NCBI RefSeq assembly: GCF_029193595.2
Contig: NZ_CP135052.1
Span: 4,216,001 to 4,280,000, forward strand
Direction: 5' to 3'
DNA from: Providencia hangzhouensis
GTDB taxonomy: Bacteria; Pseudomonadota; Gammaproteobacteria; Enterobacterales; Enterobacteriaceae
Length of the DNA: 64,000 nucleotides
In this document: piece by piece, positions 3,584-33,194 of the stretch
Position numbering within the stretch: the first letter of the stretch is position 1
How the letters are laid out: the number at the start of each line of letters is the position of its first letter
The notes under the pieces: generated by a model
The model's input: the letters and a program-made list of their open reading frames with translations, nothing else
Databases searched by the model: none
Told to the model about the DNA's origin: nothing
Made by a program: the position numbers and the translations under genes

Positions 3584-4864
3584 TTAAATAACATAGTCAG
3601 GTAATTGCTGCTCTTGTTTGCACAGACGCCGCCAATCCACCATTGGCATACGCACCTCAAGGCCAATTGAGCCGTCTTCTTCCTGCCATTCACGTTCGAT
3701 TGACTGAAGTTGATAGAAACGGCTACGTAAACGGCCTTCATTCGGTGGTAAACGCAATTCAACATGTGCGATTTCACCTGAAAGACGTTCCGTCAATGCC
3801 TGTAGCAACAATGGGATACCATCGCCCGTTTGCGCTGAAACCCAGACACGAACCGGCTTGTTATCCTCATCTCTGTCAATACGCGGGACAAAATCCTCCA
3901 GCATATCAACTTTGTTCATCACTAAAAGTGTTGGTATTTCATCCGCTTCGATTTCTTCTAACACACTTTCAACTGCATGAATATTTTCATCCAAGCGATT
4001 GTCAGCTGCATCGATAACGTGCAGCAATAACGTTGCTTCACGTGTTTCTTGCAGGGTTGCTTTAAAAGCTGCAACCAAATCATGGGGTAAATGGCGGATA
4101 AAACCCACAGTATCTGCAAGAACGACAACACCAACATCTTCTACATCAATACGACGAAGTGTTGGGTCAAGTGTTGCAAATAACTGGTCAGCAGCATAAA
4201 CATCAGCGGCCGTCATGCGGTTAAACAAGCTAGACTTACCAGCATTGGTATAACCGACAAGCGAAATAGTCGGGATATCTGCCTTACTTCTCGCTTGACG
4301 CCCTTGTTCACGCTGTTTTTCCACCCGACTAAGACGAGATAAGATTTGTTTAATTTTATCTCTTAATAGCCGGCGGTCAGTTTCAAGTTGAGTTTCACCG
4401 GGGCCTCGTAAACCAATCCCGCCTTTTTGTCGCTCTAAGTGCGTCCATCCCCTCACTAAGCGAGTCGATAAATGCCTTAATTGAGCCAATTCAACTTGAA
4501 GCTTACCTTCGTGTGTACGTGCGCGTTGAGCAAAAATATCTAAAATTACCCCTGTACGGTCAACCACCTTACATTGGCAAATCCTTTCGAGATTACGTTC
4601 TTGAGCAGGGCTTAGAGTATGATTAAACAACACCACATCTGCACCACTTTCCTCAACAGCTTGGGCAATTTCTTCTGCTTTACCTTCCCCAACAAAAAAC
4701 TTTGGATGAGGAGCTTTACGACTGCCCGTGACTATTTGTACTGGTTTTACCCCAGCAGATGTCACAAGTGACTCAAATTCTGCCAGATTATCAACGTCTT
4801 TCTCTTGAGAAAAAAAGACATGGACTAATACAGCTAGTTCACCGCCTTCATACCTATCAAACAA
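3584..4864 (-). CDS. hflX: HflX, ribosome-splitting GTPase (TTG start)
   Basis: GTPase that binds the 50S subunit and splits stalled or heat-damaged 70S ribosomes. The N-terminal domain includes [15 protein letters not shown], followed by a coiled helical region and a GTPase domain with P-loop [14 protein letters not shown] (G3) and NKVD (G4). I choose the TTG at 4862-4864 as start: the protein then begins at the same place as E. coli HflX (LFDRYEGGE against MFDRYDAGE), and AAGAGG stands 7-8 bases upstream. A TTG 33 bases further upstream has no Shine-Dalgarno. The product is 426 residues, as in E. coli. It follows hfq in the operon. Confidence 0.95.
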
Positions 4865-30778: not shown

Positions 30779-30922
30779 TTACTCTTCGTAAGAAAACGTT
30801 GTTTGAACAACTGTATTTCCATGACTAATGACAATTAGACAAAGTCTGTCTCGCATTAGTACTGAAATACTAAACACGGTAATACACGCTGAAACAAACG
30901 CAATCACTGCGAACTTGCTCAT
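30779..30922 (-). CDS. hok: Hok/Gef family type I toxin peptide
   Basis: 47-residue membrane peptide MSKFAVIAFVSACITVFSIS..., with a hydrophobic segment (about 4-23), then MRDRLCLI with the conserved Cys28 after RD, SHGNT, and a C-terminal SYEE, the pattern of Hok (RDSLCE ... GNTEV ... AYE). Hok peptides depolarise the inner membrane. The ATG at 30920-30922 follows AAGGGA. The upstream minus-strand leader has the hok-type GCGGGTGCTTGAG hairpin near 31050-31080 and the GCCCCGTTAGTT ... AACGAGGC element (30980-31013) known from enterobacterial hok loci. A short in-frame-style leader peptide ending KPR before hok might be a mok remnant. The gene is intact; whether it is active is unknown. Confidence 0.88.
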   Translation of the reverse strand: MSKFAVIAFVSACITVFSISVLMRDRLCLIVISHGNTVVQTTFSYEE

Positions 30923-30927
30923 TTCCC

Positions 30928-30956
30928 TTGACCTCTTAATGGTTAAGAGGCACAAT
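30928..30956 (+). promoter_or_regulatory. Candidate sok promoter
   Basis: -35 TTGACC (30928-30933) and -10 CACAAT (30951-30956) with a 17-base spacer, reading against hok. The spacer CTCTTAATGGTTAAGAG is palindromic. The promoter overlaps the hok ribosome binding region, as in other hok/sok loci. Confidence 0.65.
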
Positions 30957-30961
30957 CCTAA

Positions 30962-31014
30962 CTGTCGGGTTAGGTTTGGGCCTCGTTGGTTAATAATAAC
31001 TAACGGGGCTTTTC
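30962..31014 (+). ncRNA. sok: Sok-type antisense RNA
   Basis: Predicted transcript of about 53 bases opposite the hok leader. It has a 5' hairpin CCTAAC / GTTAGG and a 3' terminator stem GCCTCGTT.GTTA / TAAC.AACGGGGC followed by TTTT. Size and structure match Sok RNAs (about 55-65 nt), which block translation of the leader frame to which hok is coupled. Ends are estimated from the promoter and terminator. Confidence 0.75.
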
Positions 31015-31082
31015 CATTTCTAATCCAAACATTTTATCCAACATAATAAGCTTGAACCAGAAAGGCTCAAGCACCCGCCCAA

Positions 31083-31088: not shown

Positions 31089-31323
31089 GCAAATTTTTAT
31101 ATTTCACTCACGCTCAATTCCATTGGAATAAATAAAAATATAAATTTAATTATCTAATTATTAGTTTGTATAATATTAATTAATTTATATATTGATTTTA
31201 TATATTGGTTTCAGAAAAAGGCTAAAAATCGGCTATCTTTAAAATAGCCCTTGCAAAAGAAAAAAGTTACCGTTAGTATCCGCAGCGTTTTATATTCATC
31301 TACTAACTGCAAGGAGGTTTACC

Positions 31324-31368
31324 ATGACAACAATTAATCAAACTCTTTGCGGGCACACTCAGAAATAG
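31324..31368 (+). CDS. 14-codon leader reading frame before rtcB
   Basis: ATG (31324) to TAG, peptide MTTINQTLCGHTQK, preceded at 6 bases by AAGGAGG (31311-31317), a perfect match to the anti-Shine-Dalgarno. It ends 81 bases before rtcB, whose own ribosome binding site is weak. ACTAAC (31302-31307), just upstream of the Shine-Dalgarno, can pair with GTTAGT at 31272-31277 or with a second GTTAGT at 31377-31382, after the leader stop. This suggests a leader peptide or attenuation switch. No homologue is recognised; translation is not proven. Confidence 0.5.
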   Translation: MTTINQTLCGHTQK

Positions 31369-31449
31369 CCACTCTCGTTAGTTAATCTATTTTCTTAATT
31401 TTGCCTGCTAATTCACCTTATTTTTCAATTAAAAATGAGTTAATAGCTT

Positions 31450-32583
31450 ATGGGCAATACCTTACATACTGTGGATCAGCAAGTCAGCTATATCGCCACA
31501 GAATCAACATGGATTGAAAGTAAAGCAATCCAACAGTTACAAACAACCGCAAACTTACCTAATATGGTCTCTGTTGTTGGCATGCCTGACCTACATCCAG
31601 GCCGTGGATACCCAATTGGTGCGGCATTTTTCTCAACCAAGCGCTTTTATCCTGCGCTAGTTGGTAATGACATCGGTTGTGGAATGGCGCTGTTCCAAAC
31701 TGATATTAAAAAATCGAAAGTTAACCTCGATAAACTCGAAAAACAACTTTCTGAAATGTCAGATCATGCGCCTTTGTCATGGCTTGAAGAGCATGTTCCA
31801 AATAACATGCAATCACATGACTTTATGTCATCATTAAGTTCTATTGGTGGCGGAAATCATTTTGCAGAATTTCAAGCTATCGATGAAATATTAAACCCTG
31901 AATGGTTCAAGGAAAGTGGTTTAAACAAACAACAATTGCTGTTGTTAGTTCACAGTGGTTCTCGAGGTTTAGGCCAATCAATCCTTCGCCAACATGTAGA
32001 AAAATATAGTCATGATGGGCTTATAGACAATACTCAAGATGCAAAAGATTATCTGGAAGCTCATCAGAATGCATTGGATTTTGCCCAACTAAATCGACAA
32101 ATGATCGGTTTACGTATGCTGCAACAAGTAAAATCAAAGGGTAAACTCGTACTCGACCTTAATCATAACCTAGTTGAATACTGTAAAATCAATGATATTG
32201 AAGGGTGGATACATAGAAAAGGAGCGACACCATCAGATCGCGGGCTAGTCGTTATCCCTGGTTCTCGAGGTGATTACAGTTATCTCGTTTCTCCACAACC
32301 AAGTGAAGTTTGTCTGAATTCTCTTGCTCATGGAGCTGGACGGAAATGGATGCGAACTGAGTGTAAAGGACGTTTATCACATAAATATACACCGACTCAA
32401 TTATCAAGGACGGTATTAGGTAGTCGTGTTATCTGCGCAAACAAACAATTGATTTACGAAGAGGCCCCTCAATCTTATAAATCTATTGATACTGTAATTG
32501 AAAGCATGGTGAATATTGGCATCATCCAAGTTGTTGCGCGTCTTAAACCTGTTATAACCTATAAAACCAGTGGAGATTGCTAA
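31450..32583 (+). CDS. rtcB: RtcB2-type RNA ligase
   Basis: GTP- and Mn-dependent ligase that joins RNA 2',3'-cyclic phosphate (or 3'-phosphate) and 5'-OH ends. The 377-residue protein is shorter than classic RtcB (about 408) and matches the PrfH-linked RtcB2 group. Active-site elements visible: NDIGCGM (Asp and Cys metal ligands), GGGNHF, HSGSRGLGQ, NHNLVEY, HRKGATP, and SLAHGAGRKWMR with the guanylated His. In studied systems RtcB2 repairs 16S rRNA cut in the decoding centre by nucleases of the colicin E3 type. It is coupled to prfH by a TAATG overlap. No rtcA or rtcR is nearby. Confidence 0.92.
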   Translation: MGNTLHTVDQQVSYIATESTWIESKAIQQLQTTANLPNMVSVVGMPDLHPGRGYPIGAAFFSTKRFYPALVGNDIGCGMALFQTDIKKSKVNLDKLEKQLSEMSDHAPLSWLEEHVPNNMQSHDFMSSLSSIGGGNHFAEFQAIDEILNPEWFKESGLNKQQLLLLVHSGSRGLGQSILRQHVEKYSHDGLIDNTQDAKDYLEAHQNALDFAQLNRQMIGLRMLQQVKSKGKLVLDLNHNLVEYCKINDIEGWIHRKGATPSDRGLVVIPGSRGDYSYLVSPQPSEVCLNSLAHGAGRKWMRTECKGRLSHKYTPTQLSRTVLGSRVICANKQLIYEEAPQSYKSIDTVIESMVNIGIIQVVARLKPVITYKTSGDC

Positions 32584-33194
32584 TGATATTATTACAGTTT
32601 TCCTCTGCGCAGGGGCCTGAAGAATGTTGCATAGCGGTGGAAAAAGCACTTATTTGTTTTTTCCAAGAGGCTAAAAAACTTTCAGTCATTGCCGATACAC
32701 TTGAGTTTTTCCCATCACGCTATGGACTAAAATCTGCCTTAATTTCATTGGAAGGCGAGAATGCAGAAATACTATCCCAAAAATGGACTGGCACTATTCA
32801 ATGGCAGTGCCAAAGCCAAATTAGGCCACGACATAAACGTAAAAATTGGTTTTTGAGTGTCACCCGTTTCTCTCCCATTAAACCAATTGAAGAGAGTGAA
32901 ATTGAGTTTGAATTTACTAAAGCACAGGGGGTTGGAGGGCAGCATGTGAACAAAACCTCGTCTGCGGTTAGAGCAAAACATGTCGCTACGGGTATCACTG
33001 TCAAAGTGCAATCTGAACGCAGCCAGCACGCTAACAAAAAGCTTGCGAAACAGTTAATTCAATGGAAATTGAATGAACATCAATCGCAGCAACTTAATGA
33101 ACTGGATAAACAACGTCATCATTCCCATTATCAAATTGAAAGAGGAAATGCGGTAATGACTTTTTCAGGAAATGAATTTAAACGTTTAAAATAA
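32583..33194 (+). CDS. prfH: PrfH, release factor homologue for damaged ribosomes
   Basis: 203 residues. It keeps the catalytic domain of class I release factors with GGQ in QGVGGQHVNKTSSAVRAKH but lacks the N-terminal codon-reading domain 1 and most of domain 2. PrfH releases nascent chains from ribosomes cleaved in the decoding centre, so that RtcB can then reseal the 16S rRNA. The ATG at 32583 shares one base with the rtcB stop (TAATG); the TTG two codons earlier is not needed. A hairpin terminator follows at 33199-33224. Confidence 0.93.
   Translation: MILLQFSSAQGPEECCIAVEKALICFFQEAKKLSVIADTLEFFPSRYGLKSALISLEGENAEILSQKWTGTIQWQCQSQIRPRHKRKNWFLSVTRFSPIKPIEESEIEFEFTKAQGVGGQHVNKTSSAVRAKHVATGITVKVQSERSQHANKKLAKQLIQWKLNEHQSQQLNELDKQRHHSHYQIERGNAVMTFSGNEFKRLK

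Follow-up and report, generated by a model that had tools for sequence, protein, structure and literature searches.

The leader of the rtcB2-prfH operon

The DNA considered in this study, a window of 64,000 nucleotides from the genome of Providencia hangzhouensis (contig NZ_CP135052.1, positions 4,216,001 to 4,280,000, with coordinates below counted from its first letter), contains the ribosome-repair operon rtcB2-prfH and, ahead of it, a leader with a short reading frame. Both genes exceed the curated NCBIfam cut-offs, and the stop codon of the first overlaps the start codon of the second in the sequence TAATG (32583). I will refer to four segments of the leader as R1 to R4 and to the pairings amongst them as 1:2, 2:3, and 3:4. 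That a leader built from these segments precedes rtcB2-prfH is close to certain, and it is likely that the leader controls the operon by reading ribosomes, in the manner of the PA5471.1 leader of Pseudomonas aeruginosa, with cut ribosomes as a possible inducer. The features on which the argument is based are these:

31450..32583, + strand: rtcB2, RNA ligase of the RtcB family, release-factor-associated (TIGR03073, 573.5 bits; NF007153, 580.7 bits; PF01139)
32583..33194, + strand: prfH, peptide chain release factor H (TIGR03072, 253.3 bits; GGQ in the translation)
31324..31368, + strand: leader frame MTTINQTLCGHTQK, 14 codons with stop TAG, read from the letters (all 98 leaders have 12-16 codons)
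31311..31317, + strand: leader Shine-Dalgarno (SD) sequence AAGGAGG, read from the letters and overlapping R1 (66 of 98 leaders have the full AAGGAGG and another 24 have AAGGAG)
31307..31316, + strand: R1, pairing over 10 bp with R2 (31343-31352) in the predicted fold of the free RNA
31343..31355, + strand: R2 (CTCTTTGCGGGCA), pairing with R1 through 31343-31352 or with R3 through 31349-31355
31401..31410, + strand: R3, pairing with R2 through 31402-31408 or with R4 through 31401-31410
31417..31439, + strand: 9-bp hairpin inside the 3:4 stem (31417-31425 with 31431-31439), present in ON and OFF folds alike
31444..31457, + strand: R4, surrounding the rtcB2 start codon (31450-31452) and pairing with R3

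In the predicted fold of the free RNA of the window, 1:2 and 3:4 coexist and the rtcB2 AUG is enclosed. With a ribosome placed on the leader AUG, 2:3 forms and the outer 3:4 stem is gone. This is the arrangement of a four-segment attenuator, with R1 at the leader SD (consensus CUGCAA(A)GGAG(G)), R2 within the leader frame (CUUUGCAGG or CUUUGCGGG), R3 beyond it ((GG)CCUGCCAAUUC-like) and R4 at the rtcB2 start (GGAUUGGUAU-AUGGGC-like). None of the 4227 models in Rfam matches positions 31200-31500 at E<=1.

The first-pass annotation of this DNA, made from the letters alone, had noted the 14-codon frame, its perfect AAGGAGG, and the poor SD of rtcB2, and all three stand. The rtcB2 start in the window has only a weak GAG upstream, and amongst 97 related rtcB2 starts there are 67 without an SD match of 4 bases at -16 to -5.

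To follow the leader through other genomes, RtcB2 was searched for in 99 relatives, in Escherichia coli (two matches), in 369 genomes of the class, and in a named genome collection (best 80 of 484). The resulting 116 loci, less 12 duplicates, give 104 distinct upstream regions, a set biased towards close relatives, which the best 80 of 484 also favor. A leader of 12-16 codons with an SD precedes rtcB2 in 98 of the 104, more often than chance would allow, and the conservation of the frame that had been put forward as a check is borne out. The 98 come from genera that include Providencia, Proteus, Morganella, Escherichia, Klebsiella, Citrobacter, Serratia, Pectobacterium, Pseudomonas, Pseudoalteromonas, Thalassomonas, Chitinimonas, Niveibacterium, and Sideroxyarcus, and in 97 of them the GGQ..N motif of a release factor is encoded within the same stretch. 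Counts of pairings below are out of 97 rather than 98, one leader (L082) matching no R2 pattern; the patterns accept TTTTC, AATGC, ATTGC, and TCTGC as variants of TTTGC, and counts given for TTTGC include them. In less biased samples, the leader was found in 2 of 6 genomes with rtcB2 at the level of the class and in 7 of 11 at the level of the phylum (one of the other four being cut by a contig end), as compared to 12 of 12 amongst 25 genomes searched in the genus of G852. The element is less universal in wider samples than amongst close relatives.

The association also holds when approached from the other side. A pattern consisting of SD, ATG, and CTTTGC, with no rtcB sequence in it, occurs in 20 of 394 genomes of the order, once in each, and 15 of these sites are short leader frames ahead of rtcB2 (L118, L119, L121-L133). 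The other five are a one-codon frame (L117), three frames of at least 47 codons (L134-L136), and a 9-codon frame (L120) with no rtcB in the 500 nt examined. Providencia itself is missed by the pattern, its R1 being one A shorter. The E. coli leader used as a query finds a DNA match in 5343 of 5426 E. coli genomes. The Providencia operon as a query matched 2995 E. coli genomes, the two queries differing in sensitivity, and in E. coli the leader may survive where the operon has been cut short. An IncC plasmid of Klebsiella (L160, NC_021667.1, 2700-4712) carries rtcB2-prfH with a FAG-frame leader between qnrA6 and sul1. Three distant rtcB2 loci (L036, L146, and L162) have other SD-preceded frames of 12-14 codons (MQQLHLQYLFGI, MQNLESYTPGYVGL, and MKAIISRSLRSPTA) lacking the R2 motif, possibly independent leaders or possibly the product of chance.

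Covariation and the position of the ribosome

In order to assess whether the three pairings are maintained, the pairing energy of each segment with its own partner was compared with that obtained after permuting partners amongst loci. The 2:3 test was redone by searching whole intergenic regions, because the R3 windows used at first had been picked by their own best pairing. The results, in kcal/mol, are as follows:

2:3 (93 combinations, whole intergenic region searched): own -12.4, permuted -9.8 (sd 0.22), best of 5000 permutations -10.6
2:3, one locus per R2 core type (n=19): own -12.2, permuted -9.65, own value reached by 0 of 5000 permutations
3:4: own -13.1, permuted -10.9 (sd 0.21), own value beyond the best of 2000 permutations
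1:2: own -13.8, permuted -12.8 (sd 0.14), own value beyond the best of 2000 permutations

All three pairings covary, and they exclude one another. The permutation tests correct for kinship incompletely, and the safeguard of one locus per type covers 2:3 alone. Within 2:3 there are columns in which both sides have changed (A-U/G-C; G-C/A-U; C-G/U-A/A-U/G-C), as can be seen in the duplexes GCGGACA/UGUCCGC of Proteus, GCAGAC/GUCUGC of Escherichia, GCAGGUC/GACCUGC of Pseudoalteromonas, and GCGGGC/GCCCGC of Morganella. When partners are exchanged between pairs of loci, the loci's own partners are better in 87% of cases for 2:3, 85% for 3:4, and 60% for 1:2. Dinucleotide shuffles of the intergenic region provide a different standard: no more than 5% of shuffles equal the real pairing with R2 in 71 of 93 loci, including the window (0.01).

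The spacing of the segments is strict where a ribosome would read them and loose elsewhere. TTTGC begins 20, 22, 23, or 26 nt from the A of the leader AUG in all 97 leaders, so that the spacing between AUG and R2 differs by just 6 nt across them, and the distance from the end of TTTGC to the end of the stop codon is exactly 18 nt in 81 of them. The distance from stop codon to R3 has a median of 32 nt and reaches 193 nt (L076). That from R3 to the rtcB2 start has a median of 49 nt and is longest, 95-246 nt, in L011, L031, L065, L069, L071, and L107, where extra sequence, repeat-like by eye, lies within the 3:4 loop in several genera. From the known size of the ribosomal footprint and the position of its leading edge relative to the start codon, a ribosome bound at the leader AUG is predicted to leave R2 barely uncovered, and one that has reached the stop codon to cover it.

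The consequences of ribosome position were examined by folding each leader with the RNA blocked by a ribosome at successive codons, recording the energy required to open the rtcB2 start and the number of 2:3 pairs. Across 98 leaders, the expected number of 2:3 pairs is 3.3 in the free RNA, 8.1 with the ribosome on the AUG, 6-7 at codons 2-4, 3.4 at codon 5, and no more than 0.3 from codon 7 on. The rtcB2 start of the window costs 11.5 kcal/mol to open in the free RNA, 8.0-8.7 with a ribosome on codons 1-4, and 13.6-14.1 from codon 6, or, with one value for each state, 8.3 (stall on codons 1-4, ON) versus 13.8 (ribosome reaching R2, OFF). The difference of 5.4 kcal/mol is equaled by 1 of 60 shuffles of R2 and by 0 of 60 shuffles of R3, and of four other loci given the same control, three (L006, L013, and L032) behave like the window. 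Opening costs less when the ribosome sits on codons 1-4 than when it is at codon 7 or beyond in 92 of 98 leaders (mean difference 2.7 kcal/mol) and in all 21 of the Providencia-genus set (mean 4.6). These predictions make it very likely that an early stall on the leader turns rtcB2 ON.

The mechanism that may be proposed on this basis is the following. Ribosomes would initiate on the leader through its near-perfect SD. A healthy ribosome would traverse the 14 codons, covering R2 in passing and again at termination, leaving R3 to pair with R4 and hide the rtcB2 start (OFF). In the absence of a ribosome, 1:2 and 3:4 would form together (mostly OFF). A ribosome arrested on approximately codons 1-4 would mask R1 and leave R2 just beyond its leading edge, where R2 would capture R3, freeing R4, and the remaining intact ribosomes would translate rtcB2-prfH (ON). 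Ribosomes cut as by colicin E3 show such early arrest in vitro, so the damage that the operon repairs would induce it, and ribosomes, once repaired, would turn it off again. The anatomy of the leader, its conservation, covariation, and geometry, and the predicted exchange of folds are results of this study; the translational output, the cut ribosome as physiological trigger, and the feedback are what I infer.

A possible inducer and competing explanations

The leader of P. aeruginosa PA5471.1 appears to be the same element as the leader in the window. It precedes the same pair of genes, armZ (PA5471, of the RtcB family) and PA5470 (prfH), as a frame of 13 codons about 250 bp upstream. A locus from the genus of G852 (L153), taken to be of the P. 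aeruginosa type by leader length, Q3/F4, and distance only, has the leader MIQFSTLCRLRLA, 254 nt before an rtcB start ATGGGC, and matches the published element in its 13 residues, in Q3 and F4, and in its distance. R1, R2, R3, and R4 are all recognizable in it when compared by eye. The window for its part has what characterizes the PA5471.1 type: a short SD-led frame before rtcB2 (armZ)-prfH and the segments R1-R4 with their mutually exclusive pairings. Induction by stalled ribosomes is predicted here from folding, and stalling is described as the accepted signal for the PA5471.1 leader (PMC13041342). The same work reports that an amber codon at Q3 or deletion of the leader region raises ArmZ and that more leader mRNA is found on ribosomes in a delta-cca strain.

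What could cause a ribosome to stall so early? Ribosomes treated with colicin E3 have been found to initiate at about 75% of the control level, with about 40% going on to at least a tripeptide, about 15% to a pentapeptide, and essentially no peptide expected beyond about 8 residues (PMC2615495), although older reports cited in the introduction of that paper have them not initiating at all. Cut ribosomes that die within a few codons match a frame of 12-16 codons with an ON window predicted at codons 1-4. The operon of E. coli ATCC 25922 protects from colicin E3 (PMC9223846). The earlier proposal that damaged ribosomes are the signal is plausible on these grounds, through early arrest rather than through failed initiation. 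Cut ribosomes are slightly favored as the physiological trigger. The fuller account is evenly poised, in which ribosomes cut at 1493/1494 would act as the ligand, initiating on the leader, dying in the first codons, and holding the operon start open until RtcB2 has rejoined the rRNA, PrfH has released the stuck peptide, and repaired ribosomes close the switch, this being the ancestral role and the link to efflux in Pseudomonas secondary. No test of a cut ribosome as inducer was found in the open-licence literature searched.

Several results weigh against this reading. The element is missing from six of the 104 loci, no leader having been called in L030, L034, and L035 and no R2 found in L033, L036, and L112. 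Exchanged partners beat a locus's own in 6% of pairwise comparisons for 2:3, 12% for 3:4, and 15% for 1:2; more than 5% of intergenic shuffles match the real R2 pairing in 22 of 93 loci; and the weakest 2:3 duplexes (Pectobacterium, L023, L061, L069, and L080) reach only -8.6 to -9.4 kcal/mol. No switch is predicted in 6 of 98 leaders (L022, L061, L062, L069, L072, and L107), and L022 failed the shuffle control, 12 of 60 R3 shuffles being equally good. The mean unpaired probability of the rtcB2 start is 0.35-0.37 in every state (101 leaders), and since it is uninformative, opening energy was used in its place. The effect is visible only there and in the counts of pairs. Only for 56 of 98 leaders does the free RNA take a place between the ON and the OFF state. 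Finally, the only inducer found reported outside Pseudomonas is 4-azaleucine, for the truncated ykfJ of E. coli (PMC3516279).

The explanation that survives best beside cut ribosomes, a tentative one that falls somewhat short of an even chance, is that the leader responds to translation stress in general: any slowing on the first codons, whether by antibiotics that target the ribosome or by uncharged tRNA, would induce, and cut ribosomes would be one input of several. Its mechanism is compatible with that proposed above; its purpose is not. Through PA5471.1, the armZ gene of P. aeruginosa responds to aminoglycosides, chloramphenicol, and tetracycline, and defects in suhB, cca, fmt, and folD raise its expression (PMC12057347, PMC13041342, PMC3884212). 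Codons 2-5 have no fixed amino acid, threonine being the commonest (60 of 97 at codon 2), and so no single amino acid is sensed. What this explanation does not lead one to expect is that the operon repairs cut rRNA, nor that the rtcB-blind pattern should be found before rtcB2 in 15 of its 20 sites, the exceptions being four frames unlike the short leader and one of 9 codons without rtcB.

It is unlikely that the leader works instead as an attenuator of transcription, with 3:4 as terminator and 2:3 as antiterminator, as proposed for armZ of P. aeruginosa. That is the published model (PMC13041342, legend to Figure 6), which itself tells against a translational switch, and an untranslated rtcB2 could also be cut short by Rho. 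The model is itself described as needing confirmation (PMC12057347). A terminator-like hairpin with a U-tract was found in just 1 of 98 leaders, by which an intrinsic terminator as 3:4 was rejected, and R4 includes the rtcB2 start codon. The leader of L153 (2601-2855) has no terminator-like site, those found lying at 115-133 and 3898-3912.

More doubtful still is the mechanism put forward in the first-pass annotation, that loss of the anti-SD stops translation of the leader, whereupon the untranslated RNA refolds and rtcB2 is turned on. The free RNA does open more easily than the fully translated RNA, in the window (11.5 versus 13.8 kcal/mol) and by 1.3 kcal/mol on average over 98 leaders, and rtcB2 may open partially without translation, the free RNA being intermediate in the model. 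But untranslated RNA retains 1:2 and 3:4, and stalled states open more easily still (8.3). Since R2 pairs with the leader SD, an SD without a ribosome allows 1:2 and 3:4 to coexist and leaves the rtcB2 start fairly closed; the prediction, therefore, is that some other condition induces better than loss of the anti-SD alone. E3-treated ribosomes, moreover, still initiate (PMC2615495). The predicted logic is the inverse of that proposed, calling for initiation and then early arrest.

The stems on which that mechanism was built do not fare better. The letters are as described, ACTAAC at 31302-31307 and GTTAGT at 31272-31277 and 31377-31382, but ACTAAC is accompanied by the downstream GTTAGT in only 5 of 97 leaders (5 of 21 in the Providencia-genus set) and the upstream GTTAGT is present in only 4 of 97. 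Mutually exclusive pairings do exist in a conserved leader ahead of the repair operon; they are not the ones proposed. In a predicted fold of 31266-31460, ACTAAC/GTTAGT extends the 1:2 stem, and in a fold beginning at 31287 the pairing does not form. The folding of the leader as a whole is not unusually stable (z -0.97). The upstream GTTAGT is probably not transcribed, because it overlaps the -10 hexamer of a predicted promoter:

31251..31279, + strand: predicted sigma-70 promoter, -35 TTGCAA (31251-31256), 17-nt spacer, -10 TAGTAT (31274-31279), then CCGC

Transcription is expected from these letters to start near 31286. The promoter has 8 of 12 consensus matches, and a generic scan with a cut-off of 9 of 12 lists no + strand promoter at the leader. 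For 79 of 97 related leaders, a -35 of the TTGC type was likewise called at the equivalent position. The discriminator (31280-31286 in the window) is GC-rich, with a mean GC of 0.84 over 7 nt in 97 promoter calls. GC-rich discriminators are typical of the promoters of stable RNA genes, and a link to ribosome supply is possible.

A function or regulatory role for the peptide encoded by the leader can be set aside as highly implausible. TLC(G/R) or LCR is common in leaders of Enterobacterales and Pseudomonas, but R2 is read in two frames, as LC in 85 of 97 leaders and in a FAG-like reading in 12, which argues that RNA, not peptide, is conserved; FAG is read in Pseudoalteromonas, Thalassomonas, and a Klebsiella plasmid, and codons 2-5 vary.

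Two further observations touch the locus. A likeness of R3 in Providencia to the 3' end of 16S rRNA, judged by eye, was considered and rejected as probably due to chance. Adjoining the operon on the - strand (30779-31076) is a type I toxin-antitoxin unit like hok/sok, with a match to sok (Rfam RF01794, 30914-31076, 87.4 bits) and a frame of 47 amino acids beginning MSKFAVIAFVSACITVF (30779-30922) that resembles Hok by eye and has no Pfam match.

Known attenuators and the meaning of the proposed switch

In translational attenuators of the erm type (the leaders of ermC and ermB), a stalled ribosome frees a start codon by exchanging 1:2 and 3:4 for 2:3. The leader of rtcB2 resembles them in that a stall on a short frame would do the same. 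It differs in that erm requires drug-dependent arrest at a set codon, whereas here the peptide is variable and the arrest that switches is predicted anywhere on codons 1-4, and the marks of an arrest peptide are absent, there being no conserved peptide and two frames through R2. Amino-acid attenuators of the trp or his type also use a leader ribosome to read alternative pairings, but with control codons and a terminator, while here no codons are fixed and terminator-like sites are as rare as described. The rtcBA operon, with RtcR and sigma-54, likewise has an RNA-repair ligase induced by translation stress; its control is through a protein activator.

The closest relative remains PA5471.1, published as a transcription attenuator governing an efflux anti-repressor that answers antibiotics. 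A 2025 review states that leader control of an anti-repressor 'appears to be unique to MexXY' (PMC12057347), and by term counts the words colicin, RNA repair, and ribosome repair are absent from it. The relative in Pseudomonas, then, is already known, and what is new here is the breadth across many genera, the covariation, the occlusion of the start codon, and the link to ribosome repair. Of the initial annotation, what survives is the idea of a leader that senses damage; the stems are different, the logic is inverse, and PA5471.1 had come before.

Little is understood about how cells detect broken ribosomes. In this switch, ribosome repair appears to have a control of wide distribution. If the proposed trigger is correct, the defect would act as its own reporter, and the armZ leader of Pseudomonas would be recast as one case of a widespread control of ribosome repair, which would explain why drugs that act on the ribosome trigger it.

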